Shown here one piece after another: positions 2,753-47,898 of a DNA stretch of 64,000 bases (its first letter is position 1; each line of letters opens with the position of its first letter). Origin of the DNA: a virus. Location of the stretch: the IMG/VR virus record IMGVR_UViG_3300013233_000109, positions 1-64,000 of that record; one strand, written 5' to 3'. A model generated the notes under the pieces. It was not told the DNA's origin, made no database searches, and saw nothing but the letters and a program-made list of their open reading frames with translations. Position numbers and translations under genes: made by a program.

Positions 2753-4342
2753 CTAGTTATACTTATTATCGTAATAATCGTTAAGCCATTTCCACTCGTA
2801 TGTTTTAAACAATTCTTTTTCATCTCCGTTAACTTTTTTGTAGTATTCCATCGCGTCAGTATATCCATTATACGTCCAGTTGTGATGAGTTGTCTTAGAC
2901 CATTTTAATAAGTGATATTCGGCTTCGGTATTACCCTTAGCTGTAGATGTTGCTGCTACTAATTTGATCACTTCGCGGAATGCGGTTCGCCATGCAGCCC
3001 ACGGTTCGTCGGCATAATTTACTGTTCCTGATAACAATGGTACTACTGTATGTTCTTGTGCTAAACTAAAGTCTATACCTTTGCCGGTATGCTGCAGTAC
3101 TAAATTTTTATTGAAACAAATCATACCCATGTGGCCGTATGTGTCATCTGTTATTGGATTATACGCATTAAATATATAATGTTTTGACTGTTGCAATCTA
3201 TCTGGCTGCCATTCCCAGTTGAAGTCATCACTTACTTTTAACTTAGCATAAGCAATAAAGAACCACGGAGTCGTTGCTTTCTTTGCGCATGCTATATAAG
3301 CTGCCAATCGCCCAGTGACATTACTTACTTGATGTACTATATTAGCACTATCTTCTGTGATACTTAATAGATGACGGTAATGATCATCGGCGTTGGATTC
3401 GCCGTTGCTCATAAACACAATGTCCATTGGCTTGTCATTATACGTTTCTCCGTATATCTTGTTAATATACGGATGATCGTATATTTCGCACTTAATACTA
3501 GTTAACGCATCCTTAGGCACAATCACTGTACTGCCACTTTTGCTTAGCGGAGTAACTGCTCTTGTTTCGCGACGCCATAGATTTACTGTTGGTAAATTCT
3601 TGAACTCGTTGCGATCTTCTATTGTGCTAGTGTATATAGCTAGTGGACCTTTGAAATAAATTTCAGGTACCGCTTCGGCATTTGTATCGTACTGATGCAA
3701 TATAACAGGAGGTTTGAATCTAGGTACTACAGTATCTTGAAAACATATTGTATCGTACCATTCTAATAATTCTGCTTGTGCTATCTGCTTATTAAATTCT
3801 GCTACGTTTACGAAAAATGTATCACCGAATTTTTGCTCGTTGCTAGGGAATACGTGAAGCATTTTATCTTGCCATTCGCTTGGATGCCAAGTGAAATCAA
3901 ACTCGCTGTAATCGCATACCGAATTTATTATCCATATATAATCTTCTGTGGATTTTGATACTATACGTTTTAATGTGCCTAGGTAATCATTAACAAATCG
4001 TGTTTTTGACACTGTGTAAGCGTCTGTAAGCCGAGATAACTGGTCATTTAGCTCTTGATTATCGTGATCTATGTATACTATATTATATGGCGTTGTGCGT
4101 GGTACCACTGGATGCGAATAATTCTTATCTGTTGCTTCGTGTTTAGGTACTAGTGTTGTTCTACTATTTTCTTGGTGCTGACTTGGCCATATGTGTACTT
4201 GCTGCGATTCCCATGGTGGTGGTTCCCATAGTAAATCAAATTCGCTGTAGTCGTTGTGATTATCTAATATCCAGCAGAAGCGTGTCCTGGATTGTGACCT
4301 TGCTTCTTCTATGGTGGTTGGGTGGTAAAATATATCAAACAT
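2753..4342 (-). CDS. Glycosyltransferase-derived protein with repeated GT-A-like modules lacking DxD
   Basis: 529 aa. At least two, probably three, related modules are visible. DYSEFD followed by a W-x-P element occurs at residues 31-36 and 144-149. A third module (about 306-500) begins MDIVFMSNGES and continues through a segment matching the 307-aa glycosyltransferase at 16101-17024 (compare MDCIYLSYDEP, the AA-x2-ACAKKA helix and the W-R-x2-FRE motif). At the position of DGD in that enzyme this protein has AYAKLK, so the metal-binding Asp pair is missing. It may be a non-catalytic sugar-binding or scaffold relative (inference). Its ATG overlaps the TAA of the carbamoyltransferase (TAATG). 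Last gene of the long operon. Confidence 0.8.
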   Translation of the reverse strand: MFDIFYHPTTIEEARSQSRTRFCWILDNHNDYSEFDLLWEPPPWESQQVHIWPSQHQENSRTTLVPKHEATDKNYSHPVVPRTTPYNIVYIDHDNQELNDQLSRLTDAYTVSKTRFVNDYLGTLKRIVSKSTEDYIWIINSVCDYSEFDFTWHPSEWQDKMLHVFPSNEQKFGDTFFVNVAEFNKQIAQAELLEWYDTICFQDTVVPRFKPPVILHQYDTNAEAVPEIYFKGPLAIYTSTIEDRNEFKNLPTVNLWRRETRAVTPLSKSGSTVIVPKDALTSIKCEIYDHPYINKIYGETYNDKPMDIVFMSNGESNADDHYRHLLSITEDSANIVHQVSNVTGRLAAYIACAKKATTPWFFIAYAKLKVSDDFNWEWQPDRLQQSKHYIFNAYNPITDDTYGHMGMICFNKNLVLQHTGKGIDFSLAQEHTVVPLLSGTVNYADEPWAAWRTAFREVIKLVAATSTAKGNTEAEYHLLKWSKTTHHNWTYNGYTDAMEYYKKVNGDEKELFKTYEWKWLNDYYDNKYN

Positions 4343-5859
4343 TACGAAATAGCCGTGAATACTTTAACACCGTATTCTTTTTCAAAGCGTTTAGCATCAC
4401 TGCGATCATTTACCATTGGTTCACCTCTTATGTTTAGTGACGTATTTAATAAAATTGGACATCCTGTTTCTTTGTACCATGCTTCTAGTAGCTTCCTAAT
4501 ATCGCTGCCGTCATCTTGTACTGTTTGTACTCTACTAGTAAAATCCTCATGCACTACAGCCGGGAATTGATCCGGCTTGCGACATTTAGCAGTCACTTGC
4601 ATATAATCACTATCGCTAAATCCTCTGGGCATAATAAAATATTCATGCACATGCTCAGCTAAAATCATTGGAGCAAATGGTCGGAACTTTTGCCTGCGTT
4701 TAATCTCGTTTACTTGATCTTTAATCTCATCGCCGCGCGGATCTGCTAACAGCGATCTGTTACCTAGCGCACGTGGTCCGAATTCTGCTTTCCCTGATGC
4801 TACACCTGCGATTTTATGTTCTTTTAGGTGCTCTACTATTTTATCCACTGGCAATTTACTACCAATGTTATACCCGTGAAATGCATTGTTCCAGTTTATT
4901 TTCTTACCATATGCTAGTGCTGCTGCGCCTAAGCTAGAACCTGCATCGCCTGGATTAGGCATTATCCATATATTATTGTAGTACTTTCCGATTAGTCTGT
5001 TAGCACTACAATTCAATGCTACTCCGCCCATGAATACTAAATTGCCACTAATATCATAATGTTTTGATTTCGCGATTACATTACTAATCATTTGTTCGAC
5101 TACATATTGCGCGCCGGCTGCTACATCAAATTCGTTAATATTTTCATCTTGTAGCGATTCTATACCGATGTGTAAATTATCATTGAACGTAGGTGGATCC
5201 ATTGTATCTACTAGATCTCTTAGTATTTTATTAGCGGACCGGTCGACTTTTCCATATGCTGCCATTCCCATTAAAATATATTCTTCATCAAGGGGGCGGA
5301 GTCCTACAGATTTTGTAACCGCACTGTAGAATAATCCTATGCTGTTAGGGTATTTTTGACTCCACATTTTTTTATACTGTGCGAACCCATCTTTATTGTA
5401 ATGTGCCTGCCATATGCTGATTGTATCCATTTCGCCAATGGCATCAATTACTACTACTGTAGCAGCACTATATTTACTAGTCTGGAATCCTGCTGCTGCG
5501 TGTGATTTGTGATGCGTGTAACTTACTACTTTTGAATTATCTAGTAGGCGACGATGATCTACGAAATGTTCTTTTAATGTTGTGCGGAGTGTTAGATGTT
5601 TATCCACTTCTTGCCCAGCACGTAATTGTCTCCACTTTTTTAACCAGTGATTTTCGTAATATGCTATAGTACCTATTTGGCCTAACGAATTAGCATATGA
5701 TATTATTTCGCTACCTACCTCTGGATCGTGCTTCTTTTTTGTAAATCGTTCGCTGTGACTAGCGAATACAATATCCCCTGTGTTAGGATTTATTACTGTA
5801 ATACCGGCATCATGGTAGCCGGCACTGATTCCTAGAATATTTTTTTTAGAAATGGTCAT
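4342..5859 (-). CDS. Carbamoyltransferase, NodU/CmcH/TobZ family
   Basis: 505 aa. Family members transfer a carbamoyl group from carbamoyl phosphate, via carbamoyl-AMP, to a hydroxyl of a sugar or other small molecule. N-terminal Kae1-like domain: GISAGYHDAG (residues 10-19), HHKSHA (116-121, metal-binding His), an acidic VVIDAIGEMD strand (about 136-145) and FMGGVALNCSANR. C-terminal domain: KAEFGPRALGNRS, RRQKFRPFAP, and LLNTSLNIRGEP near the end, all standard for NodU/TobZ. The length and every motif look complete, so it is probably active. Its start overlaps the end of the DUF1289 gene by 14 bases. In this operon the acceptor is probably the product of the glycosyltransferases and radical SAM enzymes (inference). 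Confidence 0.93.
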   Translation of the reverse strand: MTISKKNILGISAGYHDAGITVINPNTGDIVFASHSERFTKKKHDPEVGSEIISYANSLGQIGTIAYYENHWLKKWRQLRAGQEVDKHLTLRTTLKEHFVDHRRLLDNSKVVSYTHHKSHAAAGFQTSKYSAATVVVIDAIGEMDTISIWQAHYNKDGFAQYKKMWSQKYPNSIGLFYSAVTKSVGLRPLDEEYILMGMAAYGKVDRSANKILRDLVDTMDPPTFNDNLHIGIESLQDENINEFDVAAGAQYVVEQMISNVIAKSKHYDISGNLVFMGGVALNCSANRLIGKYYNNIWIMPNPGDAGSSLGAAALAYGKKINWNNAFHGYNIGSKLPVDKIVEHLKEHKIAGVASGKAEFGPRALGNRSLLADPRGDEIKDQVNEIKRRQKFRPFAPMILAEHVHEYFIMPRGFSDSDYMQVTAKCRKPDQFPAVVHEDFTSRVQTVQDDGSDIRKLLEAWYKETGCPILLNTSLNIRGEPMVNDRSDAKRFEKEYGVKVFTAIS

Positions 5860-6025
5860 CTCTGTTTTTTAAATCCTTTATTATTGTTTCTCTCTCAGTG
5901 TCGGTTATATTTAACCACTGTGCTACTTCAGTTTTAGTGCGTTTACATCCGACGCAATATCCGGTGCGAATGTCAATGCGGCATAATCCTATACACGGTG
6001 AGGTTTCTAGTGCATGCGGCATCAT
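5846..6025 (-). CDS. DUF1289 small cysteine-rich protein
   Basis: 59 aa, starting at the first of two ATG codons (6023-6025). The sequence contains SPCIGLCRID, then GYCVGCKRT, the four-cysteine CxxxC...CxxC signature of DUF1289, followed by a helical part with the E-x-A-x-W-L motif typical of that family. Function is unknown; the cysteines suggest a metal or Fe-S site (inference). It overlaps the upstream 39-aa gene (stop within the double ATG) and the downstream carbamoyltransferase by 14 bases, so it is coupled to both. It is too short for most gene callers. Confidence 0.88.
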   Translation of the reverse strand: MMPHALETSPCIGLCRIDIRTGYCVGCKRTKTEVAQWLNITDTERETIIKDLKNRDDHF

Positions 6026-6141
6026 CGGTACGTAAATGGATCGCGCTTCTTGAGCTCTTTGAGTTTCTTTCTGTAGCGTAATTCTAGTTTAATTTTTCTA
6101 TAAAGTTTTGCTATTGGATTGTTTTTCCATATGTTTTTCAT
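6022..6141 (-). CDS. Very small basic protein, 39 aa
   Basis: A 39-residue ORF starting MKNIWKNNPIAK and ending KKRDPFTYR, very rich in Lys and Arg with an amphipathic central helix. I recognise similar tiny basic proteins from cyanophage genomes, but no function is known to me. The start ATG (6139-6141) overlaps the TGA of the upstream 367-aa gene (ATGA), and its own TGA lies inside the ATGATG start of the DUF1289 gene. This four-gene chain of overlaps is the main evidence that it is translated. Confidence 0.75.
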   Translation of the reverse strand: MKNIWKNNPIAKLYRKIKLELRYRKKLKELKKRDPFTYR

Positions 6142-7241
6142 TTTGCTAGTGCCTCAATTTGTTGTTCTTTGTAATCACTGTCGCTCCAGTGATATGGATA
6201 TTCTGCGTAATTATCTTTAGTTTTTATACTACTTACATCTAAGTATTTAAACAATTTCTCCCATATTATAGAATAATCAGTAGTGCCAAATGAACGTTCT
6301 AAATCTACTTGGCCTACTTGCGGGTGACCTATTGTTAGCGATTTATCATCTGGATCAAATCCGTTGTTAATTAACCATTTTTTAAAGTTAGCTAATTCAG
6401 TTTTCATGAATTCGTATTCGCCTGGGTTATTGGCCCATTCAATATCAAAGTCACCAGCGGCTTCGGTTTGCGAGCTCAATGTTGTAGTAGTTAATTTGTC
6501 TATATCTTGGCCTTCTTCATCCTGAAATACCTCCCAGTGATGTTTGCCAATTGCTTTGTTTACGCCAACAAACACACCGCCTAGTGGTCTAGCTAAGGTA
6601 TCTACTCCGAATGATTCGTAATCTGATTCTGTTAACTTAAACCGCGGTGCTTGTAAATAACACATTAACTGACTTGGACGCATCCATTCAGGCGCATATT
6701 CTTTCTTGCGATAGCTTAACGCCCAGGATTCAAATTCGTGGCATAATAGATTTAATTGCCTAATGTTCCATTTTGTGTTTGCATCTGCGTTATTATAGAA
6801 TACTGACATATTATTGCTTGTTCCTTGCAAATCTTCAAAGTATTTGTGTAACTGATTCATCTTATCGTGTACTAGTTTGCGGCCGGGCAGTCCGTCGCCG
6901 ATAGCACCGTTGTGATCTTGTATACAGTTTTCCATACTAAAATGATCATCTATTGAATATCCCAAGTCTGCGTTGTTTATGGCATCGCATGTGACGTTCA
7001 TTTGTGCTGTTAGCATTTCTCCATTGCGGGCGTACTCTGGAATGCCGAAAAATTGATAGTTTTTTTCTAAGTGTAGCTTATTTTTAATAATATCGTTAAA
7101 CGCATTGTACCATTTTACGCTCAGTGGATCAGTGTATACGTCAATATACACTGGCATTGTTTCGCTAGTGTCTCTATTTTTTAACGTCATTACTATTGTA
7201 TCAGTTAATTCCTTGGTACCATTCATGTGCTTCGCTGTCAT
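6138..7241 (-). CDS. Conserved hypothetical protein next to the radical SAM enzymes
   Basis: Up to 367 aa. I recognise the general type (a central LCHEFESW helix and a later RPSQ-x-MCYLQAPRF element) from T4-like marine phages, but it has no assigned function. No membrane segment or signal peptide is visible. The start is uncertain: ATG 7241 overlaps the previous gene by 41 bases, ATG 7226 by 26, and ATG 7190 leaves a 10-base gap; no Shine-Dalgarno sequence decides between them. It lies between the radical SAM array and the carbamoyltransferase, so it may be an accessory protein or a substrate of the pathway (inference). Confidence 0.8.
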   Translation of the reverse strand: MTAKHMNGTKELTDTIVMTLKNRDTSETMPVYIDVYTDPLSVKWYNAFNDIIKNKLHLEKNYQFFGIPEYARNGEMLTAQMNVTCDAINNADLGYSIDDHFSMENCIQDHNGAIGDGLPGRKLVHDKMNQLHKYFEDLQGTSNNMSVFYNNADANTKWNIRQLNLLCHEFESWALSYRKKEYAPEWMRPSQLMCYLQAPRFKLTESDYESFGVDTLARPLGGVFVGVNKAIGKHHWEVFQDEEGQDIDKLTTTTLSSQTEAAGDFDIEWANNPGEYEFMKTELANFKKWLINNGFDPDDKSLTIGHPQVGQVDLERSFGTTDYSIIWEKLFKYLDVSSIKTKDNYAEYPYHWSDSDYKEQQIEALAK

Positions 7242-8532
7242 TGTCTTTTAATATCTCTGCTAATGTGCTGTCGCCTGGGCGGATTGCTTCTATTTTTTCT
7301 ATACGTGTCTTGCCTTTTATTGCACCTGCTTTATATGTATCGCTAAATTCTTCCTCGAACACAGGGCGGCTCCACAAATTATTCATCATATCTATTATTG
7401 ACTGCTGCTTGCTAGAATATCCTTTGGCATTGGCATAATCTAAGAACTCTTTAATTATACGATGTAATATGCTTTTGGGCAATGATAATGGTGACATTAA
7501 TATATCTGGGCCAAATGCGAACGTTATCTTGCTTAATATTGTAGTGTTTAATTCCTTGGATAGATTAAACATATTTTTTAACTCGAATAATCCTGGCAAT
7601 GTTAACGTAAAATCTAATCGCATTTTACGAGGGTGGCCATTACTTAATTCTTGCCCTTGTTTGTAATATGCTAGGAACTGATTGTAATCTAGTCCTGTTC
7701 TAATGTACTCTCCTATTTTGCCCGTGCCGTCGATGCTAGCACATATCTGCCAATCTCGTATATTTGGTAATATGTCTGTGAATAAATTAGTGCCTTTGTA
7801 TTCTATTCTTGATAAATTAGTATTATAACGTGCGTATACTTTGTGTCCGTCATTTAATTCTACAATGCGATTCATATACTTCCAGTGCTGCTCGAACATC
7901 AAGGGCTCGCCGCCTACCCAGTATATTTCCTCAATGCGATGTTCCTCTACGGCGTTGCTGAATTCTTGTTCGATCTGATTGTCTTGAAACGTTGATATTT
8001 TTTTGCGAACGTCGGGCTTCATCCAGTTATTTTTTGGATTATCGTAATTAATCATGCCGTGCTTGCGTTGCTCACTTTCCCAGGAGCTACTTAGCATATC
8101 CCCGCATTGGCGGCATTTGAAGTTGCATAGATTACTAAAGCGATAATCCCAGCTCACTGTTTTTAGTGTTGTGTATCCGTGTTCGTTCGTGTTATCCCAT
8201 ATACTATCGTATTTGTGATTAAATAGTCTATCAAAATATGTCCGGTAAACGTCAGTGTTAAGTAGTTTGTCATTGCATACTTCGCACTCTGACAATGTCT
8301 CACCTGCCATCATGCGCTTGCGTACTGATTTCATGTGCTCGCTGTTCCAGTGTTCCTCTAGCGATTGCGGATTGTATTGCCCGGTGCCTGTTGCGGTGTC
8401 TATGTACTGCTCGAATGATTGCGCTGGCTCACGTGACGCGCAACACATTCTGCGCTCTGTTTGTGGTGAGAGATAGGTGTGTGTCCACGGTGCTAGACAT
8501 AATGTTGATGGCTTATCTAGGGGCTTTTTCAT
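7201..8532 (-). CDS. Radical SAM protein A with N-terminal cysteine cluster
   Basis: 443 aa. The radical SAM CX3CX2C motif (Cys136, 140, 143; CNFKCRQC) should bind the [4Fe-4S] cluster that cleaves S-adenosylmethionine, and GGEP at 207-210 binds the SAM amino group. Before it lies an extra set of cysteines: Cys12 in CLAPW, the CC pair at 30-31 and CxxC at 83-86, in the style of SPASM/twitch auxiliary Fe-S domains but at the N-terminus. Related enzymes modify peptides or sugars; the substrate here is unknown. It belongs to the PW/CC subgroup with B and C. The gene overlaps its neighbour B by 20 bases. Confidence 0.92.
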   Translation of the reverse strand: MKKPLDKPSTLCLAPWTHTYLSPQTERRMCCASREPAQSFEQYIDTATGTGQYNPQSLEEHWNSEHMKSVRKRMMAGETLSECEVCNDKLLNTDVYRTYFDRLFNHKYDSIWDNTNEHGYTTLKTVSWDYRFSNLCNFKCRQCGDMLSSSWESEQRKHGMINYDNPKNNWMKPDVRKKISTFQDNQIEQEFSNAVEEHRIEEIYWVGGEPLMFEQHWKYMNRIVELNDGHKVYARYNTNLSRIEYKGTNLFTDILPNIRDWQICASIDGTGKIGEYIRTGLDYNQFLAYYKQGQELSNGHPRKMRLDFTLTLPGLFELKNMFNLSKELNTTILSKITFAFGPDILMSPLSLPKSILHRIIKEFLDYANAKGYSSKQQSIIDMMNNLWSRPVFEEEFSDTYKAGAIKGKTRIEKIEAIRPGDSTLAEILKDNDSEAHEWYQGIN

Positions 8533-9724
8533 ATAATACCTTATATAATTCTCTATGCGTTGTTTCTAAGCTAACACCGCGGCGGTTATCTAGCTGATTT
8601 ATATTTTGTAGCAATTCTACCTGCGATACTTTTGCTGGCGCTTCTATGAATTTTGCTATAGAATTGAACTCTCGCTGTACTGCTTCTGTTTGATTGCTTG
8701 GCACTGTTAATCTTGCTTTTGCTACTTGCTTAGCTAGTGGTGGGAGCGATTGTATGCAGTTATGCGGGGCGTCGTGTAACATATTCCAGTGTACTAAATC
8801 AAAATCTGCAAAATGTTCCCATGATGTGATGTCATGCAGATACAATACATTGTATATATTTATAGTGACGCATAACTGTAATGCTATATTTTTTGACGTA
8901 TTGCGCAAAATCATGAACTTTTTTATGTTGCGATTTACTTCATCCCAGCTAGCATTTGTACGCTCGTATTCAAATCGTTTCCCTACGTTATCAATACTAA
9001 ATGCGATTTCAACGTGCTTAAAATGTTCCCATACTTTAATGTATTCTTCCGGCCATTGTGTGCCGTTGGTATTGTAATGTATGCTAACATGCTTGGCCCT
9101 ATTACTATCTACTAGGCGCTGTAAGTACTGAAAATGTTCTTTAATTAAGAATGGTTCGCCACCTGTGAATTCTAAGTATTCTATTTGTGGACTAAGCTGA
9201 TCTAATTCGTTCCAGAATGCGCTTGCGTTGCGTGGCCATTGCCCGTGCTGTTTCATTTCATAATGAAAGCTTTTCTTTTTATCCCCCGTGACAAATCTTA
9301 GCTCTTCTCCGGCAAAGTTACTTGAACTCCAGCTACCGCATATACGACATTTTAAATTGCATATATTTCCTAGTTTTAAATCTAAAAATGATAGCGTATT
9401 ACTTTCTGTTGACCATTCTGATTTAGCAATAATGTCGCTAAGTCTATTTTGTGTATTTTGTCGCTTGCTAGTTCTACCGCTGTCTTCTTCATCCCAGCAC
9501 TTTCTGCAAGTCTTAGGGCGATTTCCTAGTAAAAATTGACCACGTAATTCTGTCATGTAGTTACTATCTTGGATGTCGGCCAACGATGCGGTGTTTAAAT
9601 CAAATTTATCGCCGTAGTTATCTACTATCTCATCGTCAGCTAAACAGCATGGGCGCACTGTTCCTATTGGGCTCGCTTCAAGTGATAACCACGGTAGAAC
9701 GCAAAATGTTTTATTTGGTATCAT
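8513..9724 (-). CDS. Radical SAM protein B with N-terminal cysteine cluster
   Basis: 403 aa. Radical SAM core with CNLKCRIC (Cys122, 126, 129) and TGGEP (187-191). N-terminal auxiliary cysteines are Cys8 (FCVLPW), the CC pair at 26-27 and CxxC at 73-76 followed by W-x-E-E. The same arrangement occurs in A and C, so the three look like diverged paralogues rather than one broken gene. All motifs are intact. The start ATG overlaps the TGA of C (ATGA), which indicates coupled translation. Confidence 0.92.
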   Translation of the reverse strand: MIPNKTFCVLPWLSLEASPIGTVRPCCLADDEIVDNYGDKFDLNTASLADIQDSNYMTELRGQFLLGNRPKTCRKCWDEEDSGRTSKRQNTQNRLSDIIAKSEWSTESNTLSFLDLKLGNICNLKCRICGSWSSSNFAGEELRFVTGDKKKSFHYEMKQHGQWPRNASAFWNELDQLSPQIEYLEFTGGEPFLIKEHFQYLQRLVDSNRAKHVSIHYNTNGTQWPEEYIKVWEHFKHVEIAFSIDNVGKRFEYERTNASWDEVNRNIKKFMILRNTSKNIALQLCVTINIYNVLYLHDITSWEHFADFDLVHWNMLHDAPHNCIQSLPPLAKQVAKARLTVPSNQTEAVQREFNSIAKFIEAPAKVSQVELLQNINQLDNRRGVSLETTHRELYKVLYEKAPR

Positions 9725-11352: not shown

Positions 11353-11353
11353 C

Positions 11354-11602: not shown

Positions 11603-12227
11603 TTGTTTGACAAGACCATTCCGTGTATAGTTTACGCACTAATTCAAGGTTTAACGCTAGCCCCATAATGAGATTTATTTTTTTAATTTCTGCCAGAAAT
11701 AACGTAACGTTAGCGAAACTCTCGTACGGGAAGTTGATTTCCTCTTTTATTTGGGCCATGAGCGGGTGTTTTGATAATCGCTCAATTGCACGCTTCTCTT
11801 TATTTATATCTAGCGAGTATCCTTTAACACGTTGATTATCAAGTAACTTCTGCTCGTCACTTCGACTCACCGAAATGTTAATTATATATTTCCAAAATAT
11901 ACTTCCGTACAGTACGTCGATGTCATTATCTAAGTCAGTTGGATGTTGAGGCATGATTAGGCCTAGATTGGAGCTTTCGTACATATGAAATGGTATATGC
12001 CCGTAGTGACCGGATATTATTGTAATTTCGTTACTGTGCCATTTGCCGTTACTAGTGTGGAATGATAACGAATGATTAATAAACCGTTGGGATTCATTTA
12101 CTTTATTTCGGTAATCAGTTTGTGTATTGCATGCATCACCGATAACTGTTTTTTCACTTAGTGTTAATGCCTTATATAACAAGTTTCCTGAACTACCAGG
12201 TAAATATCGAATCAATGCTAATAACAC
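11559..12227 (-). CDS. Hypothetical protein with a P-loop-like N-terminus
   Basis: 222 aa from GTG 12227, which has a good ribosome site (AGGAG, 8 bases upstream). The N-terminus has a hydrophobic strand followed by LPGSSGNLLYK, a glycine-rich loop that recalls sulfotransferase/P-loop folds and the similar PPGAYGHYIFW of the 290-aa protein at 49899-50771. No complete Walker A motif is present, so nucleotide or PAPS binding is only a possibility. It sits in the middle of the radical SAM array, 22 bases downstream of gene D. Confidence 0.7.
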   Translation of the reverse strand: MLLALIRYLPGSSGNLLYKALTLSEKTVIGDACNTQTDYRNKVNESQRFINHSLSFHTSNGKWHSNEITIISGHYGHIPFHMYESSNLGLIMPQHPTDLDNDIDVLYGSIFWKYIINISVSRSDEQKLLDNQRVKGYSLDINKEKRAIERLSKHPLMAQIKEEINFPYESFANVTLFLAEIKKINLIMGLALNLELVRKLYTEWSCQTIAHKLQATTINRTI

Positions 12228-12249
12228 TATTGCAACTCCTGCGATTCTT

Positions 12250-13605
12250 TCATAAGTTCGTGTACCATTCTGCTAAATCCGGGAAGGTTTCTTTGAAGTT
12301 TTTGCCTCTGCGTTTATCGTATTGTTCGAAGAATTTTTTAAAGTCATTGTGCAATGATGGCATATCAAATGTTCCATCGTGCGGTGTCTTTACTACATCT
12401 AAATAATCTATTAATCGCTGTAATTGATTTAATTCCATTTGGTGTAGCAGTTTATTATCTTTGTTAGTATCTAACCACTTTTGCAGGTCTTCTTTGTACT
12501 TAGTTCTTATATTGTCGGGCAGGATTAATGCGCTCTGGAATGATGGAAAACGTAATATGTTCAACGAGAACGTTGGATAATCTTTGCCATGCGTTTTCTT
12601 TATGCGTAATACATAATTTAAGAAATCTGGTAGTGTGTCTAAACATAACGCATTCACCGTGCACATCATGTGAAATCCTTGTACGCTGCCTTTTGTTAAT
12701 ATTTTATCTACGTTTCCTGCCCACCGATCCCATACTAAACCATCTCGGATATATTCTGCTTGCTCGAACATGCTCTCATTGCTAGTGTATAACTGGAAGT
12801 TTTTTATTCCGTGACTAGCATCTATTAGCTTATCTATTAACGCATCTTTGGCACCTAGATTGGTATTTATAGCAAACTGCATATCTGTTTTCTTCTTTGT
12901 AAACCATTCTAATAATCTAAACGTGTGCTTTGACATGAGTGGCTCACCACCTGTTAAACGTAGTTCTTGTAATGATTCGTGGAGGTCAGATTCCCACCAT
13001 TTAAAGAATGCTTCTACGTACGGATTTGTTTCATCTTTAGCGAATGGTTCTGCGCTGTCGTGCGTGTGTGTAAAGTGATTACGACCGTCACTTACTAAGT
13101 CCACAAACGGTCCGTTGACTTTTAAATCTTTGACCCATTCTGTACTAAATGCAGGATTACAATAGCTGCAACTAAAATTACATGTGCGGTCAAAAGCAAT
13201 TTCCAAAGTCTTAAGATTAACGTCGGTTGATTCTGCTTCCATTTTTGAAACGTATTCTACGTCTTTGTCATCATAAATTACACTCTTATATACTCTGTCA
13301 GATATATTATCGCGGCCGATGTCTTCGACTTTCCAGCAGTACTGACATCCTGCTGGGCGTTCGTTGTTTTGCATCTGCTTGCGTTCTGCTTTCTTTTGCT
13401 GTGTGTTGTGTATTGCTGCTGGATTATCTTTAATTTCATTAATATTTATTTGATGTGGTAGTGGATGATGGCAGCTGGTTGTTTGTCCACTTCCTAGCCA
13501 TATAGTGGCATTATACCATTTAGCTAAGCAAAGAGAAGTACTGTATGAATTAAGATAATCTCTTATTTCTAGATCGGTTTTTCTTGTTTCTTTTCTTAAA
13601 CTCAT
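12250..13605 (-). CDS. Radical SAM protein D with N-terminal cysteine/histidine cluster
   Basis: 451 aa. CNFSCSYC (Cys142, 146, 149) and TGGEP define the radical SAM core. The N-terminal cluster differs from A-C: CLAKW with Cys26, then SCHHPLPHQI with Cys45 and three nearby His, then CxxCW at 87-90. Protein F has the same pattern (CLAKW, SCYHPPLHQI), so D and F form a second paralogous subgroup. The start overlaps the end of E by 4 bases. Confidence 0.92.
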   Translation of the reverse strand: MSLRKETRKTDLEIRDYLNSYSTSLCLAKWYNATIWLGSGQTTSCHHPLPHQININEIKDNPAAIHNTQQKKAERKQMQNNERPAGCQYCWKVEDIGRDNISDRVYKSVIYDDKDVEYVSKMEAESTDVNLKTLEIAFDRTCNFSCSYCNPAFSTEWVKDLKVNGPFVDLVSDGRNHFTHTHDSAEPFAKDETNPYVEAFFKWWESDLHESLQELRLTGGEPLMSKHTFRLLEWFTKKKTDMQFAINTNLGAKDALIDKLIDASHGIKNFQLYTSNESMFEQAEYIRDGLVWDRWAGNVDKILTKGSVQGFHMMCTVNALCLDTLPDFLNYVLRIKKTHGKDYPTFSLNILRFPSFQSALILPDNIRTKYKEDLQKWLDTNKDNKLLHQMELNQLQRLIDYLDVVKTPHDGTFDMPSLHNDFKKFFEQYDKRRGKNFKETFPDLAEWYTNL

Positions 13606-14750
13606 TTACTGTGCCCCGGGATATTGTCCTCAATTAAGAATTTTAGTTCATCTGGTACAGCTAACTTATTCCGTAAACTGAATTGCTTAAAGAATGATTG
13701 CTGATCTGTTCTAAGATCGTTATTGTACACTGTATTAGTTAACAGATTTATTATAATTTGCAGTAATTCCGATTCATCACTGCTCTTGTGTTTAACGCAA
13801 TCTAGTATCGATTGCGCTTTTATTTTTTCAGAGGGGGTTAAAATCTCAAAACTGTTAACACGCGGTGTTTTGCAATTCTCTAAGCTCCACAAAATTCTTC
13901 CGGGATATTGTTCCTTTATTTTATATATATATTTATGTAACTCGTTAAGACCCCATACTGTGTGTGCTGTTATCAATGACAGGAACCTTATTTGGACTGT
14001 TGTATTATCTAATAGCCAGTGTAAATTACTATTGAATAAATTAAAATCAAATCCTGCACGAATGTACGATGTAATTCCTGGGCTAGCATCTATACTTGGC
14101 TGAATTTCAATAATTGCGTCTTTTGATAACAGTGTGTTTATAATCTCTTTGCTTTTAAAGTTAAGATTAGTGGCTACCCGGACGGTAAGACCATCTATGT
14201 CAATTTGATCTATCAACTCGCTAAACAACGGAGTAATAAATGGTTCGCCACCTAATATAGTTAGCATACTAGCTGGTTTATTGCTATTATAATAAGATAC
14301 TAACTTATTAAGGAGCGAACCGGTGTTGCTATGTATAAAATTTAGTTGGTGTGCGTCAAATTTTATGTCGTACGGACCATTTGTTTTAAGGTCTCCTTCC
14401 CACTGCGAACTAAAAGCAGAATTACAGTAAGCACAAGTAAAATTACACAGGTTTCCTATGTTGAGTTGCAAACGATCAATTGCTAAACTCCCGGCCCACT
14501 CTCTGAGTTTAATATGCCGCATTGATTCTTTTCCATTCTCTTCAGTCTTCCAGCAATAATTGCATGACGCGTCCTTAATTCCTGCTAGCAAATTGCTACG
14601 CTGATGTGCTAACGTGTTAGCTACATCTTCGCCCTGCACAGGGATTGCTAGTGCTCGGCAACACCCGTACAAGTAATTTGACCGCGGGTTGTATACCACT
14701 TCTTGCCACTTTGCTGGGCAAAATGAATGCTTGTTTTTATCTGTGAGCAT
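13602..14750 (-). CDS. Radical SAM protein E, shorter variant
   Basis: 382 aa from ATG 14750, which overlaps gene F by 14 bases; an upstream ATG at 14810 would overlap by 74 bases and adds a non-conserved stretch. CNFTCAYC (Cys102, 106, 109) and LGGEP are present. The N-terminal cluster combines features of both subgroups: FCPAKW (Cys11) as in D/F, a CC pair at 30-31 as in A-C, and CNYCW (63-66). It is the shortest of the six but has all key residues. Confidence 0.9.
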   Translation of the reverse strand: MLTDKNKHSFCPAKWQEVVYNPRSNYLYGCCRALAIPVQGEDVANTLAHQRSNLLAGIKDASCNYCWKTEENGKESMRHIKLREWAGSLAIDRLQLNIGNLCNFTCAYCNSAFSSQWEGDLKTNGPYDIKFDAHQLNFIHSNTGSLLNKLVSYYNSNKPASMLTILGGEPFITPLFSELIDQIDIDGLTVRVATNLNFKSKEIINTLLSKDAIIEIQPSIDASPGITSYIRAGFDFNLFNSNLHWLLDNTTVQIRFLSLITAHTVWGLNELHKYIYKIKEQYPGRILWSLENCKTPRVNSFEILTPSEKIKAQSILDCVKHKSSDESELLQIIINLLTNTVYNNDLRTDQQSFFKQFSLRNKLAVPDELKFLIEDNIPGHSK

Positions 14751-16107
14751 AGTATTTACATTCTTCCCAAAATGTTTGTAACTCCGGAAAATAATCCAGG
14801 AAATTTTCATTGTGTCTATTATCTGCTTCTTTGAAGAAATTATAGAAATTTGCTTTCTTTTGTTCTACATTATCTGTGCTATTACGCATCCACGCAATGT
14901 CTCTGTCTAAGCGGGCTATTTCGTAATCTTTGAATCCATGATAGCGATTAGCACTTGTTTCTATGTTATCTTCCATGAACATTTTAATTTTTTCTAACTC
15001 AGCAGTGTATTGCTCAGGTAATATTTGCATACTTTGCCACTCAGGTGTACGCAATACTGGCGTGTCAAACCACACACGCTGATAATCTTTGCTATGTGTT
15101 TTGCGTAATAATAAAATACCTTCTATTAATTTGTTGAGATTTTGGATAGATAGATTATTCATTGTTATTATAAATGTAATACTACTGTAATTTGGCACTT
15201 CTGTCAAGTACTGATTTACTCTTTCCCATAATAAATCAAAATCTAGTCCGTGGCGTATATATTCTGCTTGCTTGCCCCAGGTGTCTACAGAGACGTATTG
15301 CATAAAATGTTCTATCTTCCCTGTAGTTAATTGCTTAACATATCCTAGGTACTTATCCCATAACTTTTGCTCCACTGATAAATTACTTGTTACGTTTAAG
15401 TGTAGATCGCTCTTTGGATTTGCTAATACATAATCAAATACTTTATATGTGTTTTTATCCATTAATGGCTCACCGCCTGTCATTCTAAAATGTATTAAAT
15501 CTTTATATAGTTCCGGCCACCATTCCCAGAACGCATTAACATACGGGTTATCTTCGCTATGTGGAATTACTCTGCGTTTGCCTGTGAAATATTGCGGATC
15601 GTTGTGCGGGGGTTGTGTCGGGTAGGCTCCGTGCTGCTTAACTTCTCCCATCCACTTAGAGGAAAACTGCGGGGAGCAATATGAACAGGCTAAATTACAC
15701 GCATTATTAAAATTAACCTCAACATACGACGGCGTTGTGTTGGCTAGCGGATTAGCTACTATGGTATCAAAATCTTTTGCTGCCCATGGCTCGCCTGATC
15801 TATAATGTCTGTCACTTAGCTTGTTATTATCTTCCATATCCCAGCAATAGCTACATTCTGCAGGGCGTTCGCCATTGATCATTTGCTTGCGTGCTACTGC
15901 TTTTTCTTTAGTGTTATGCAGGGCGCTCGGATCTAATTTTATATCATCTATGCTAATTTGATGTAAAGGGGGGTGATAGCAACTATTATTAAGTCCGGTG
16001 GGCAGATGTAAGCTTAGTTGTTTCCACTTAGCTAAGCACATGCTAGGGCTCACGGTTGCTAGCTTTTCCTTGGCTTTTTCTGCGTCGCTTAGAAACTTAC
16101 TTACCAT
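14737..16107 (-). CDS. Radical SAM protein F with N-terminal cysteine/histidine cluster
   Basis: 456 aa. First radical SAM gene to be transcribed in the operon. Auxiliary cluster: Cys24 in CLAKW, Cys43 in SCYHPPLHQI, CxxCW at 85-88. Core: CNLACSYC (Cys137, 141, 144) and TGGEPLM. It is closely similar in architecture to D. It overlaps the glycosyltransferase gene upstream by 7 bases, which ties the radical SAM block physically to the glycosyltransferase block. Confidence 0.92.
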   Translation of the reverse strand: MVSKFLSDAEKAKEKLATVSPSMCLAKWKQLSLHLPTGLNNSCYHPPLHQISIDDIKLDPSALHNTKEKAVARKQMINGERPAECSYCWDMEDNNKLSDRHYRSGEPWAAKDFDTIVANPLANTTPSYVEVNFNNACNLACSYCSPQFSSKWMGEVKQHGAYPTQPPHNDPQYFTGKRRVIPHSEDNPYVNAFWEWWPELYKDLIHFRMTGGEPLMDKNTYKVFDYVLANPKSDLHLNVTSNLSVEQKLWDKYLGYVKQLTTGKIEHFMQYVSVDTWGKQAEYIRHGLDFDLLWERVNQYLTEVPNYSSITFIITMNNLSIQNLNKLIEGILLLRKTHSKDYQRVWFDTPVLRTPEWQSMQILPEQYTAELEKIKMFMEDNIETSANRYHGFKDYEIARLDRDIAWMRNSTDNVEQKKANFYNFFKEADNRHNENFLDYFPELQTFWEECKYYAHR

Positions 16108-17024
16108 CCTTCTTGGTTCCGTATCACGTCGATTTCGCGCACGGTTGCTCCTTTATTATGCCAGTTAGATTGATAGTGATGCTTAAAGAAAGCACTAGCA
16201 CTAGCGTCAGGCGTTATGATGGGAAGATCTAGCTGTGTTTTTAATTCCCTGCCGATTTCTAGTAACATTGTTGGTAAATCAGTTACTTGCGATTTGTAAA
16301 TCTCTGCTAGCTTCGCAAAATCTTGTACATCTTTATAATCCCAATCACTTAACATAGTCATTTGTGTTCCCATACGTGCGCCAAGTTGCGCGTACAAGCC
16401 GTATTCAACATCGCTGCCTACATTGTGCCATATGCTTAAATGATCCATATTACGTTTATGCACACTATCTTTAAAATCAATCAATGATGGTTTTGTTCCT
16501 CTATTTAAACACATTTTTACGCCTTCACGGAAACCTGCGCGCCATGCGTGAAACTTGCTGCCGTTTGGGTATGTTGTGCTATAACAATCATGCATTGCCC
16601 AGTACAGGGGGTCAAAACAAAACTCTACATCAGTATCATCGCTGCCATCGGATGCTTCATGTGTTTTCATATTATATATAAAGTCTTTAGTCCAGCAACT
16701 AATTCCGCCATTACCATACATTAATCCGTTAATGTGGTTTCTTGCACGCCAACGATACACTGCTTTATTGTACTGGTCGTCTTTGATATCTAATACTAAA
16801 TTAAAAAAGTACGGGTCGGGAAGATTGTCGCCATCGATTAAAATAAATCTGTCGGTTGTACTAGCGTCAGCTGCGGCTTTATGTGCGGCATCGCTACCCT
16901 TGACTCCGTCTACTCTTGTGGCCCATGGAATCATGTTTTTTATTTTTACCCAGTATTCTTCCTTCTGTGGCTCGTCATAACTTAAATAGATACAATCCAT
17001 GTCTGCGATATCAATCTGTCTCAT
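16101..17024 (-). CDS. GT-A-type glycosyltransferase, 307 aa
   Basis: The N-terminal region (MDCIYLSYDEPQ from residue 9, then a G-V-K-G and A-A-H-K-A-A-A helix) and FILIDGDN (about 60-67) give a GT-A fold with a DxD-type metal site (DGD) for a nucleotide-sugar donor. A YGNGGISCW motif and a later WRAGFREGVK motif match a glycosyltransferase type I recognise from cyanophages. The donor and acceptor are unknown. The 529-aa protein at the end of the operon looks like a duplicated, DxD-less version of it. It overlaps the upstream 117-aa gene by 14 bases. Confidence 0.85.
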   Translation of the reverse strand: MRQIDIADMDCIYLSYDEPQKEEYWVKIKNMIPWATRVDGVKGSDAAHKAAADASTTDRFILIDGDNLPDPYFFNLVLDIKDDQYNKAVYRWRARNHINGLMYGNGGISCWTKDFIYNMKTHEASDGSDDTDVEFCFDPLYWAMHDCYSTTYPNGSKFHAWRAGFREGVKMCLNRGTKPSLIDFKDSVHKRNMDHLSIWHNVGSDVEYGLYAQLGARMGTQMTMLSDWDYKDVQDFAKLAEIYKSQVTDLPTMLLEIGRELKTQLDLPIITPDASASAFFKHHYQSNWHNKGATVREIDVIRNQEGW

Positions 17025-17364
17025 ACGTTTTTGTTTCCCATTGTGTTGTCGAATTATTATCTATTAGTGTAATGTCAGTATCGTTAGTACTAACGCCATT
17101 TGTGCTCGGTACTAATTTACCTATCGAAATTAAATTTTTCTTGTGAATTTCACCATCTTTAATAAAGATATTTTTGTCGCCTATAGCAAATTGCTCAGGT
17201 GTTATTGTTATATAATCACCTTCTAATTCCTGCATAGAATATGTTACTGTTGATGCTGTATAATATAATCTAAAAAATATACTCTGCTTAACAGGGGTAT
17301 TAATTAATTTTTCTGCTTCTCTGAAGAATTTATCATCTAATGTTGTGTTTGTTATATTGTGCAT
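17011..17364 (-). CDS. Hypothetical protein, 117 aa
   Basis: A mostly beta-rich, polar sequence with no recognised family, no signal peptide and no membrane segment. It overlaps glycosyltransferase genes on both sides (32 bases upstream, 14 downstream), so it is a normal member of the operon. The C-terminal 40 residues are rich in Asn, Thr and Asp and may be disordered. Confidence 0.7.
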   Translation of the reverse strand: MHNITNTTLDDKFFREAEKLINTPVKQSIFFRLYYTASTVTYSMQELEGDYITITPEQFAIGDKNIFIKDGEIHKKNLISIGKLVPSTNGVSTNDTDITLIDNNSTTQWETKTYETD

Positions 17365-18148
17365 TAATTACCTCGCTAAATTGTTTTATATTATAATGAA
17401 ATGGATACTGCTGATCTATTGTGTTAATTCTTATATTCGATCCACTAAATTCATAAATCATTTCTTTGGTCCAGTCTTCGGATTGCAGCCAATTTATTCG
17501 CCCTTTCATATGTATCAATGTTGGATAGCTAGTACTTGGTAATGTTACAGTATCTACTCCAATCGCTAGTGCTGCTAACGCATAAACTAAATCTGTAGTT
17601 CCGTGATCTGTTTTGCCTAGCTTTATTTTTGTCTGTACTTCTTCCCAATTCTCAAATAATTCACGTACTGTTGCGAAGAATTTTGCTGCGGTTTTGCTAA
17701 ATCTCCAGTACGTTATAGCATTGTATACGTCCGGTAATTTGTTGGCGTCAAATATTTTTCTATAATGGCGCTCGGTTGTTAGCTCATTTTTGTAATTACG
17801 TGCGCCTATTGTTAATACTACATCGCGTTTCCGTAACATTGTCCACCAGTGATCTATACTATGCGGAATTATCATATCTGCTTCGATTTTTATTGTCTCG
17901 CGAAATGGACTTGCTGCGAATACTTGCCAGTCATTTGCGTACGGATTTTCAGTGTTAACTGGATAGGGGAATTTTATTATGTAATCAAAAATAGTATTAT
18001 CTATGGTATCATTTGTTAGTATTGCTATTTTTGCAGCAGGGGTGTGAATCTTTATACTTCTTGCACACGCTATCGCACAATTAACGTAATCTACATCCGC
18101 TGTATTACTTGCTACTATTAAATATCCTTGCTCAGCTAATATCGGCAT
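17333..18148 (-). CDS. GT-A-type glycosyltransferase, 271 aa
   Basis: N-terminal strand YLIVASNTADVDYVNCA, then AKIAILTND, and a metal-site segment ETIKIEADMIIP (about residues 83-94), the layout of GT-A enzymes related to the cyanophage and LPS-type transferases. A W-R-F motif and a TTDLVYALAALAIGVD helix follow. No signal peptide, so cytoplasmic. It overlaps both neighbours. It is similar in design to the next gene upstream, so the two may add successive sugars (inference). Confidence 0.8.
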   Translation of the reverse strand: MPILAEQGYLIVASNTADVDYVNCAIACARSIKIHTPAAKIAILTNDTIDNTIFDYIIKFPYPVNTENPYANDWQVFAASPFRETIKIEADMIIPHSIDHWWTMLRKRDVVLTIGARNYKNELTTERHYRKIFDANKLPDVYNAITYWRFSKTAAKFFATVRELFENWEEVQTKIKLGKTDHGTTDLVYALAALAIGVDTVTLPSTSYPTLIHMKGRINWLQSEDWTKEMIYEFSGSNIRINTIDQQYPFHYNIKQFSEVINAQYNKHNIR

Positions 18149-18956
18149 TTATCATATCCTCCATTGCGAATTTATTTAAACAGTGAAAATCTGTTGTTAC
18201 TATCGATCGCATTAGTCGCATTTTGTTCCTGGACCATTTTTCATATGTTATCTCAAATTCAGTGTCAGATAGCTGTGTGGCGTATATGTCGTTTAATGCT
18301 GTAGGCAAATGCCAGGGGATGGTTGGTATTGCATCTAGTCTGTGACCGTGCATTATTGATTGCGCTATACTTACTGCATAATCATTCCTGTACGGTAGTG
18401 AATTAAATTTATATATATTACTGTAGAATTTATAATTATCTTTTATCATTGTTATTGTATCGAACATTTCTTTTGCGAAGTCACTTTTGCGGAAATATAA
18501 TATAGTTGCCCAGTAATGTGGCATTTTTGTTTGGCCAAATGTTTGATACGCCGATAAACTATTTTTACTGGCTACATCGTATACATTCCTGTGACAGAGA
18601 AAATCATGTGGATTATTAAATAATTTGTTTAGCTGATCTGAATTAACAATGTAATCACTGTCGATTACTACTGTTTCGTCATATGGGCTAATGTCGTATG
18701 CTTGGTATCGGTTTACATTGTACCAGTGATCTATTTTATCTTTAGTGTGTATATCGAAATTACGCTTAGATTTTGTCTCTGCTTCGGCTATTACTATATT
18801 ATGTTTAATATTTTTATCAGCTAGTGAGTTTGTATCTGTTACTATTGTTGTCGGCTTATCTAAGAAGCGCGAAATGCGATCTGCTACCCACACTGCTTGC
18901 GATAAATAATCTAATGTTTTATTATTAAATGCGAATATTAAAAAGCCTTGGCTCAT
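18132..18956 (-). CDS. GT-A-type glycosyltransferase, 274 aa
   Basis: The start at ATG 18956 overlaps the TGA of the upstream gene (ATGA); an upstream start at 18992 is less likely. N-terminal strand GFLIFAFNN, then TTIVTDTN, and a clear DxD in ETVVIDSDYIV (about residue 100). RNDYAVSIAQSIMHG near residue 190 is the acceptor-side helix seen in related enzymes. First catalytic gene of the long operon. The sugar specificity cannot be read from the sequence. Confidence 0.82.
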   Translation of the reverse strand: MSQGFLIFAFNNKTLDYLSQAVWVADRISRFLDKPTTIVTDTNSLADKNIKHNIVIAEAETKSKRNFDIHTKDKIDHWYNVNRYQAYDISPYDETVVIDSDYIVNSDQLNKLFNNPHDFLCHRNVYDVASKNSLSAYQTFGQTKMPHYWATILYFRKSDFAKEMFDTITMIKDNYKFYSNIYKFNSLPYRNDYAVSIAQSIMHGHRLDAIPTIPWHLPTALNDIYATQLSDTEFEITYEKWSRNKMRLMRSIVTTDFHCLNKFAMEDMINADIS

Positions 18957-19249
18957 CGTTGCTTCTGTAATGTTTCGTATTCTGCGTGCCATGCGTTCAA
19001 TTGTTCTTGATACCGCATTGCTGCTTCGGTGTGTAATTCGCTTGGTTTAACTTTACATGGATTTCCGTACTCGTCGAGTAATACAATTTCTCTTGCTGTT
19101 CCGTACACTAGCGTTAATGCTAATATTTCAGGGCCGGCTTTCCACATGCCCTCAAATGCTGTAAATAGCATTTTTGCTTCGTATTTTTCCGTAAGTGTTT
19201 GCTTTGCTGCTTCGTGGTCGAATCGTGCTTTTATTGTGTCTGCTATCAT
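18953..19249 (-). CDS. Conserved hypothetical protein, first gene of the long operon
   Basis: 98 aa from ATG 19249. A start at 19297 would lie inside the -35 box of the operon promoter, so it is excluded. The sequence (KARFDHEAAKQTLTEKYEAK, then LLDEYGNPCKVKPSEL) is of a type I recognise as conserved in cyanophages, with no assigned function. The 5' leader carries an AAGAGGTG element about 11 bases before the ATG. Confidence 0.82.
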   Translation of the reverse strand: MIADTIKARFDHEAAKQTLTEKYEAKMLFTAFEGMWKAGPEILALTLVYGTAREIVLLDEYGNPCKVKPSELHTEAAMRYQEQLNAWHAEYETLQKQR

Positions 19250-19273
19250 ATTAGTATTTACACCTCTTTTACT

Positions 19274-19302
19274 AGTATAACATAATTTGATACGCAAGTC
19301 AA
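19274..19302 (-). promoter_or_regulatory. Sigma70-type promoter of the 16.5-kb radical SAM/glycosyltransferase operon
   Basis: On the - strand: TTGACT (19297-19302), exactly 17 bases, then TATACT (19274-19279). It is followed by a short leader and the ATG at 19249. No other comparable promoter is seen downstream, where genes overlap almost without a break to 2753. It should be read by host RNA polymerase with its housekeeping sigma, that is, early in infection. Confidence 0.85.
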
Positions 19303-24417: not shown

Positions 24418-24431
24418 TGTGTGTATTTATG
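24418..24431 (-). promoter_or_regulatory. T4-type late promoter for tail-fibre protein 2
   Basis: CATAAATA on the - strand at 24424-24431, predicted +1 near 24418 and a 19-base leader with an AGGA ribosome site. The box overlaps the stop codon of the upstream gene. Confidence 0.75.
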
Positions 24432-25068: not shown

Positions 25069-25073
25069 GTTCT

Positions 25074-25081: not shown

Positions 25082-25085
25082 ACTT

Positions 25086-47876: not shown

Positions 47877-47898
47877 AACACATAGGAGAAAACTAATA

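Follow-up and report, generated by a model that had tools for sequence, protein, structure and literature searches.

A fixed twelve-gene radical SAM cassette beside the tail-fibre genes of uncultured aquatic jumbo phages, a candidate pathway for glycan tailoring

The window analysed here is a stretch of 64,000 nt from IMG/VR record IMGVR_UViG_3300013233_000109, whose full length is 72,894 bases. Open, mostly overlapping genes fill its minus strand from 2753 to 19297, in agreement with a sequence-only reading that had recognised about 16.5 kb of overlapping genes at this place. The genes of this block, referred to below as the cassette, follow the order h114, GT286, GT271, h117, GT307, rS456, rS402, rS451, h222, rS543, rS403, rS443, h367, two very small open reading frames (ORFs), CTase and GTrep529. 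Twelve of them form a fixed core (h114-GT286-GT271-h117-GT307-rS456-rS451-rS543-rS403-rS443-h367-CTase); rS402 and the last gene, GTrep529, lie outside it. The sequence-only reading had listed six radical S-adenosylmethionine (SAM) enzymes, three glycosyltransferases and a carbamoyltransferase, to which h367, h222, h117, h114 and the two very small ORFs near 5850–6140 are now added, as is the jumbo-phage origin of the window. The cassette is carried by a large group of uncultured aquatic jumbo phages.

The six radical SAM genes, all on the minus strand like the rest of the cassette, encode predicted twitch-type enzymes: rS456 (14737–16107), rS402 (13602–14810), rS451 (12250–13605), rS543 (9721–11352, with an N-terminal extension of ~140 aa), rS403 (8513–9724) and rS443 (7201–8532). 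As had been proposed, these tandem paralogues have complete motifs, with CxxxCxxC, GGE and an N-terminal four-Cys twitch-like segment recognised by eye in each. All six match NCBIfam model NF033640, five of them over its 170-bit cut-off (rS543, 390.9 bits; rS403, 336.9; rS456, 328.8; rS451, 318.8; rS443, 288.0), and rS402, at 148.1 bits, is counted as a relative only. The six proteins share 22–33% pairwise identity over their aligned parts and are therefore old paralogues, not recent copies. Among full-length relatives the CxxxCxxC motif is kept throughout (rS456, 130/130; rS451, 111/111; rS543, 115/115; rS403, 92/92; rS443, 75/75), GGE is found in 91 of 92 rS403 members, and the N-terminal Cys pattern is complete for rS456, rS451 and rS543 (130/130, 111/111 and 115/115) and nearly so for rS403 (90/92) and rS443 (73/75). 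Relatives of rS402 retain CxxxCxxC in 7/7 cases, with the N-terminal pattern in only 4/7. Mean column identity of rS456 is 74% (17 members). A PDB sequence search with rS456 returned nothing convincing; the best PDB sequence match of rS403 is SkfB, and it is weak (E 0.00086).

Three further core genes probably encode GT-A glycosyltransferases: GT286 (18132–18992), GT271 (17333–18148, GT-A/GT8-like) and GT307 (16101–17024). The naming follows from DxD-like motifs, from glycogenin as a sub-threshold match of GT271 (E 0.1) and from the GT307 model, which is GT-A/nucleotidyltransferase-like at low confidence. None of the three has a significant Pfam match, so that the three glycosyltransferases of the sequence-only reading stand as probable ones. 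GT286 is related to GT271 (E 1e-6), and both weakly match PHROG 1903, a family of unknown function; the GT286 profile gave no sensible match in PDB. GT307 is strongly conserved, with a mean column identity of 78% (14 members; GT271, 51%; h367, 48%; GT286, 43%) and a DGDN motif that is invariant in 129/129 full-length members. A PDB sequence search with GT307 was likewise unconvincing. In its predicted model, of low confidence (predicted local distance difference test (pLDDT) 66.3), residues 1–142 of the N-terminal half resemble nucleotidyltransferase and GT-A folds at Z ≤7.5, perhaps just a common arrangement, as the comparison tool itself remarks.

CTase (4342–5859) is predicted to be an O-carbamoyltransferase of the TobZ/NodU type. 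Both of its domains pass the Pfam cut-offs (Carbam_trans_N, 122.9 bits; Carbam_trans_C, 168.1 bits), which bears out the earlier assignment, and HHxxHA is kept in 35/35 full-length relatives. Its best solved relatives are the carbamoyltransferase 7xb6, a novobiocin-type enzyme, GdmN and TobZ, and it scores 120.1 bits against the NodU equivalog NF041651, far under that model's 1000-bit cut-off. The core protein h367 (6138–7241) has no relative by sequence in Pfam, NCBIfam, PHROGs or PDB. Its predicted model is good (pLDDT 87.3) and possibly represents a cyclophilin-like barrel with a helical insert at 67–183: five rows of the structure comparison reach Z 7.3–8.3 and the next row 4.7. Three of these five matches we take to be cyclophilin chains, although their titles do not name cyclophilin. 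A kinase-like assignment was discarded, the best Foldseek value (E 0.12, to kinases) being meaningless. The remaining core genes encode the small conserved proteins h117 (17011–17364) and h114 (18953–19297), the latter with an ATG near 19249 as its likely start.

Genes beyond the core are less uniform. GTrep529 (2753–4342) has no match in Pfam, NCBIfam or PHROGs, and we rejected it as a fourth glycosyltransferase, since the GT307 profile gives no match at E 10 and the resemblance to GT307 is by eye only; the sole bridge between them is that the GTrep529 profile labels Bacteriovoracales genes which a GT307 alignment had found at 26% identity. The accessory gene h222 (11559–12227), with no family match, lies between copies of a 22-bp direct repeat, GATTTAGCAGAATGGTACACGA, at 12258–12279 and 11544–11565 (minus strand), and looks like an insertion that used the rS451 3' end. 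Before CTase, a small ORF at ~5850–6040 (minus strand) reads MPHALETSPCIGLCRIDIRTGYCVGCKR... and is presumably DUF1289-like.

The conservation of the cassette was assessed in 207 viral loci plus the window. These loci were picked by cassette genes on viral contigs (48 loci for rS543, 80 kept of 162 matches for rS456 and 80 kept of 252 for GT307), and some overlap on shared contigs. Because many loci end before the last genes, counts for later genes are lower bounds, and the rS402 profile was built on one sequence. Profiles label GT307 and rS456 in 196 of the 208 loci each, GT271 and GT286 in 190 each, h117 in 188, rS451 in 187, rS543 in 170, h114 in 166, rS403 in 144, rS443 in 119, h367 in 95 and CTase in 78. 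One order and strand is kept in 198 of 208 loci, with four that deviate and six that have at most one labelled gene; the complete twelve-gene set occurs in 61 loci and the window. Distinct GT307 sequences number 131. The sequence-only reading had proposed a biosynthetic pathway and had named beforehand scattered and decayed genes in related genomes as the pattern expected of unrelated cargo. The core genes are neither scattered nor decayed, and constant gene order together with intact active-site motifs rules out unrelated cargo. The pathway does not take in every gene of the block, however: rS402, GTrep529 (here a lower bound) and h222 are labelled in only 13, 13 and 10 loci, and single radical SAM genes are scattered in the genomes of relatives. 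Jumbo-phage relatives (L303–L312) carry additional twitch radical SAM genes one at a time, amid genes that were assigned by eye to replication, repair and packaging. One such insertion separates gp55- and gp47-like genes; in the window this place is taken by a different gene, of 291 aa (49896–50771).

Judged by its genes, the window is a jumbo-phage fragment with a tail like that of 121Q, CBB and Atu_ph07. Its portal, head protease and late sigma factor are T4-type genes by PHROG matches, and the homologous tail block of these jumbo phages is present. The tail gene t218 (24427–25083, minus strand; 218 aa) has matches in 60 phage records; identity is 42.5–54% in the 25 listed, which include Phosso, Atu_ph07, 121Q, PBECO4, CBB, GAP32 and Munch. 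The order wedge, giant tail protein, t218, fibre is common to the window, Phosso, Atu_ph07 and PA5oct, the wedge gene of Atu_ph07 standing without annotation at its place in the block. Two fibre genes lie between t218 and the cassette, both on the minus strand: t480 (20331–21773), a fibre with a predicted Peptidase_G2 self-cleavage domain (Pfam E 7.6e-6; 25.9 bits, cut-off 25), and t317 (19357–20310), a fibre-type protein that adjoins the cassette. Genes for thymidylate synthase and dihydrofolate reductase (DHFR) also adjoin the cassette. The interval from thymidylate synthase to t218 is occupied in 121Q and CBB, which are enteric cousins, by structural genes, those for long tail fibres among them. 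In PA5oct small genes follow the fibres and the cassette is absent there. Hair-like fibres or whiskers on the head and tail of 121Q, CBB and Atu_ph07 are noted in a review (PMC7824862).

With t218 as a probe independent of the cassette, we scored 79 of the best 80 of 592 relatives, which are near relatives only. Among the 53 loci with at least 5 kb downstream, GT286 was found in 52, h114 in 50 and GT307 in 50, and the cassette follows the fibre genes in 52. The exception, L231, has an empty site: fibres are followed by two or three small genes and then by thymidylate synthase and DHFR, which are neighbours in the window too. Neither the cassette nor t317 is present in L231, and neither of its two local fibres has a Peptidase_G2 match. 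Its whole 293-kb record contains no NF033640 match and no GT307 match, and 12 other chosen long records have 8–21 and 1–2, respectively (E ≤0.001, not all over cut-off). Protein distances of tail and cassette are correlated (Mantel r 0.63–0.76, p 0.001, 39–43 loci), at values near those between tail proteins themselves (0.75–0.76). A probe with the gene at 169–840 confirmed two relatives, too few to use. Because of the tail linkage and the correlated distances, we regard the cassette, on this comparative evidence, as a long-standing and mainly vertically inherited part of these genomes.

A sigma-70-type promoter-like site (TTGACT-17-TATACT; 19274–19302, minus strand) precedes h114. The sequence-only reading had placed the whole block behind one early-type promoter; the site exists, and in the window alone such matches are at chance level (75 found vs 69.3 expected). 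Relatives nevertheless keep the −10 box: in the 45 nt before h114 it matches at 5/6 positions or better in 87, and exactly in 55, of 107 distinct upstream regions. As a control, upstream regions of other cassette genes reach 5/6 in 16–69% of cases (h367 highest) and match exactly in 0–11 of 71–135 regions per gene (at most 11/135). A terminator-like hairpin precedes h114 in 68 of the 107 regions. The box ends only 5–7 nt before the h114 start codon in 56 of the 87 (e.g. L190:671), which suggests a leaderless message and leaderless translation of this first cassette gene. The T4 late promoter TATAAATA was dismissed as a timing clue, with 8 matches vs 14.4 expected.

Between the core genes, chiefly after GT307 (253) and rS456 (245), the loci carry accessory ORFs. 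We collected 720 of at least 100 aa from 201 loci in 89 clusters and scanned 79 of the 89 representatives in two rounds, the second covering 69 representatives, with 25 of 50 families listed. A 354-aa family occurs in 147 loci, has no Pfam match and is fucosyltransferase-like by eye only. Others include a GDP-mannose dehydratase/epimerase of nucleotide-sugar type, a cytidylyltransferase-like protein (16 loci), a PNP/UDP phosphorylase-type nucleosidase (20 loci), SAM synthetase (11), an AMP-ligase (11) and further radical SAM genes. Mostly with one cluster each, there are also a DegT aminotransferase, a hexapeptide acyltransferase, GHMP and PfkB sugar kinases, an APS kinase, methyltransferases and B12-binding proteins. 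By analogy, this is a gene pool typical of variable surface glycans, and the SAM synthetase and nucleosidase would suit a heavy use of radical SAM enzymes. By crude hydropathy, no window gene (15) or accessory representative (89) has more than one membrane span, and a control permease has five. Multi-span membrane components are a defining feature of seroconversion (gtr-like) cassettes, a type that is not matched by these window genes and accessory representatives.

Glycosyltransferase genes and radical SAM genes are known auxiliary genes of phages. The queries put to 50,697 phage records by tblastn were GT307, h367, an h117 homologue, h114, GTrep529, rS543, rS456 and the carbamoyltransferase. 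The first five had no match; Vibrio phage records hold weak relatives (21–24% identity) of rS543 (in two) and rS456 (in seven), and relatives of the carbamoyltransferase are common (143 records). Neither of two candidate bearers was accepted: in the neighbourhood viewed, Vibrio phage K566 has three radical SAM genes and no annotated carbamoyltransferase or glycosyltransferase, and phage C48C1 has a carbamoyltransferase and one glycosyltransferase with no annotated radical SAM gene nearby. When genomes were scanned with the GT307 alignment, three loci were confirmed: L213 at 45% identity and two Bacteriovoracales genes at 26%. L213 (PBPT01000016.1) is a 335-kb contig from a Neomarinimicrobiota bin with tail fibres and a divergent cassette; it is probably a jumbo phage binned with a bacterium, and we infer no host from it. 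The Bacteriovoracales genes (L214, L215) encode proteins of 537–547 aa with a GT307-like domain and precede a 457–475-aa gene that appears asparagine-synthetase-like by eye.

The radical SAM family also has a bacterial setting. We scanned 38 genomes from the order of a Bacteriovoracaceae metagenome-assembled genome for NF033640 (E ≤1e-50) and the carbamoyltransferase C-domain, found in 22 and 25 of them. The two lie within 5 kb of each other in 9 of the 21 genomes holding both, vs 0.76 expected from random placement (maximum 6 in 5000 trials), a null that ignores gene clustering and contig breaks. In L318, a locus read whole, a carbamoyltransferase and two Glycos_transf_1 genes occur together with radical SAM genes, and ABC-2 exporter genes lie next to them on the opposite strand; a second locus (L321) has the same run of large genes. 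Members of the NF033640 family therefore appear to work near glycan enzymes outside phages too, which we rank as the strongest functional clue. Together with the exchangeable sugar genes, this bacterial pairing of radical SAM and carbamoyltransferase genes indicates glycan tailoring, and the product of the cassette is probably a glycan. Of the roles listed in the sequence-only reading, surface glycan chemistry, on virion or host, is the one we favour; DNA modification and a small molecule find little support.

Where this glycan would be attached is a more tentative matter. In the explanation we prefer, at somewhat short of an even chance, the phages inherit these genes together as a pathway that assembles a glycan and tailors it by radical chemistry, the most likely carrier being their own tail-fibre protein. 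A virion acceptor is favoured by the fibre linkage, the lack of multi-span membrane proteins and the Thr-rich neighbour t317; that the acceptor is a virion protein in the cytosol we consider nearly as likely as the contrary. In the t317 family Ser and Thr make up 29.8% of residues (n=151), vs 20.8% in t480, 17.9% in the giant protein and 16.2% in t218. An electrospray tandem mass spectrometry (ESI-MS/MS) note accompanies the PA5oct homologue of t317 and the neighbouring fibres, which we read as placing these proteins in virions. As the acceptor itself, t317 is a doubtful candidate.

In this pathway, one polycistronic message would be made from the sigma-70-type promoter. GT286, GT271 and GT307 would act in the cytosol, with nucleotide-sugars of the host as donors, and glycosylate Ser/Thr residues of the adjacent t317-type fibre. 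Each of the five twitch radical SAM enzymes could then abstract hydrogen at a set position of the growing glycan (epimerisation, dehydrogenation or similar), and the carbamoyltransferase would cap a hydroxyl. Enzymes swapped in fixed insertion bays would make the sugar differ between phages, and with it the adsorption or visibility of virions. In some phages, SAM synthetase and nucleosidase may supply the radical SAM enzymes and clear 5'-deoxyadenosine. What the sequences show directly is gene content, order and conservation, intact motifs, the link to tail genes, the empty site and the accessory content; the individual reactions are inferred.

Several observations weigh against this reading. 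The window's own t317 contains only 24.6% Ser+Thr and its PA5oct homologue 22.2%, t495-type fibres have 22.1% (n=13), and adhesins are commonly Thr-rich. An exclusive link of t317 to the cassette had to be abandoned, PA5oct having the homologue with no cassette beside it, and t317 thus does not need the cassette. The separate promoter fits a host target equally well, and the exporter beside the bacterial locus L318 may place that locus in a surface polysaccharide context. Radical SAM genes among replication and packaging genes make location alone no guide to the target. Twitch/SPASM radical SAM enzymes are better known from peptide substrates, and Phosso and Atu_ph07 hold at the same genome site a radical SAM operon resembling those for ribosomally synthesised and post-translationally modified peptides (RiPPs). 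Finally, the three glycosyltransferases, with no significant Pfam match, are putative in activity.

Remodelling of host lipopolysaccharide or capsule during infection, for example against superinfection or readsorption, comes next, with a real but smaller chance of being right. It would account for a conserved promoter-like site of the cassette's own and for the bacterial counterpart beside an ABC-2 exporter and Glycos_transf_1 enzymes, and a few accessory genes start with signal-peptide-like sequences (by eye). The authors of a pelagimyophage survey think that phage GT8 enzymes, encoded in a genome region that also has fibres and radical SAM cassettes, are likely to modify O-chains (PMC7029224). 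A host target is harder to reconcile with the constant linkage to, and co-inheritance with, the tail fibres, or with the absence of t317 and of a Peptidase_G2 match in the local fibres of the empty-site phage L231. The missing multi-span proteins also leave no obvious flippase or polymerase among the 15 window genes and 89 accessory representatives. On balance we lean towards the virion rather than the host as the target.

Radical SAM modification of a protein or peptide, such as cross-links or epimerised residues on the fibre or on h117/h114, with the sugar genes secondary, is improbable. Twitch/SPASM enzymes often act on peptides, the best PDB match of rS403 is the weak one to SkfB, and h117 and h114 are conserved small proteins, the only conserved small ORFs of the fixed core. 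In both Phosso and Atu_ph07, a protein of 306/296 aa with CHTSCHASCHSSRSRR or CHSSCHASCHNSRSRR at its end is surrounded by four radical SAM genes, of which one in Atu_ph07 is shorter. The Phosso and Atu_ph07 proteins match no cassette profile (E 1), however, and have weak BLAST matches to two radical SAM proteins only. Moreover, among the called ORFs of the window clade (at least 40 aa) no short precursor was seen whose core is conserved and either Cys-rich or repetitive, and bacterial members of the family are often linked to carbamoyltransferases.

Hypermodification of DNA bases with sugar and carbamoyl groups to evade restriction is very unlikely: phage DNA glycosylation is known and thymidylate synthase and DHFR adjoin the cassette, but the synthase matches ordinary phage thymidylate synthase (phrog_160) and occupies the same place in the cassette-less L231, and the cassette families found include no recognisable hydroxymethylase or base kinase. 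A diffusible aminoglycoside-like small molecule, made during infection by the radical SAM enzymes, glycosyltransferases and O-carbamoyltransferase, is also very unlikely despite TobZ, GdmN and the novobiocin carbamoyltransferase being among the closest solved relatives of CTase, and despite BtrN, a twitch-type enzyme of an aminoglycoside pathway, given the constant link to tail fibres, the lack of a multi-span exporter in the cassette and of any cyclitol synthase or resistance gene recognised in family scans.

The nearest known systems share parts of this picture. Five of the six radical SAM genes belong to NF033640 by its cut-off; that model is of subfamily type and names no reaction, and here five distinct orthologous lineages occur together in one order. 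CTase resembles TobZ, NodU and GdmN in both domains and differs from NodU in falling far under the equivalog cut-off (120 vs 1000 bits). Phosso (Sinorhizobium) and Atu_ph07 (Agrobacterium) have their radical SAM operon in the same position, after the giant tail protein, the t218 homologue and one fibre; their fibre end resembles that of t480 by eye, and Pfam finds no Peptidase_G2 in the Phosso fibre. Unlike the cassette, this operon has no cassette-profile match and no recognised glycosyltransferase or carbamoyltransferase, and includes the protein with a CHxSCHASCHxSRSRR tail. Proteins with such ends (L296:24315–25235, L295:25062–25952) occur in Phosso and Atu_ph07 only (three records, two phages). 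The surrounding radical SAM genes are weakly similar to RiPP maturases, and the tailed protein is possibly a radical-SAM-modified, tail-linked protein.

In the literature, radical SAM richness of T4-like marine viruses is already published (PMC5332604): the environmental genome TARA_ERS488813_N000010 has 12 such genes, counted there in an Fe–S context, and the present loci add a cassette and its tail linkage. Pelagimyophages have radical SAM cassettes in a variable host-recognition region with tail fibres and glycosyltransferases (PMC7029224), described there as an addition distinguishing two genomes; here a twelve-gene fixed core is found in many jumbo phages. Radical SAM and glycosyltransferase genes are prominent together in Tasman Sea phage metagenomes (PMC7150976), as a metagenome-wide profile and not as a gene cluster. 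Glycans are found on capsid and tail-tube proteins of mycobacteriophage virions (cited in PMC12619734, in a passage on glycosylation that does not mention radical SAM enzymes), unlike the cassette, which is known from genes alone. Judged by titles and the starts of abstracts, we found no description of the twelve-gene cassette, its tail linkage, the empty site or the bacterial counterpart, and, not having been met in these searches, the fixed cassette appears undescribed as a kind of phage glycan modification.

A side observation concerns another gene of the window. The late sigma factor (gp55-like) gene at 47848–49899 (plus strand) encodes 683 aa, vs ~308–338 aa by eye in relatives, and its PHROG matches are split (17–247 and 577–656). 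It likely contains an intein-like insertion between WRGY and TYNDEM; a Pfam scan of the 683-aa protein gave no match.

A pathway kept vertically beside host-recognition genes points to radical chemistry as a routine element in the building or disguise of these viruses, or in the reshaping of their hosts. The carbamoyltransferase and probable glycosyltransferases give a functional context to a radical SAM family named without reference to any reaction. The empty-site relative L231 offers a natural control, and the cassette enzymes an expressible source of new carbohydrate chemistry. In its full form, our proposal is that aquatic jumbo phages make their own radical-tailored glycan coat on a Thr-rich tail fibre, with a core pathway of five radical SAM steps and exchangeable bays giving each phage a specific sugar signature. 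Taken whole, this is rather unlikely, but if true it would be an O-antigen-like variation system on the virus particle, at the site where enteric relatives have their long tail fibres.

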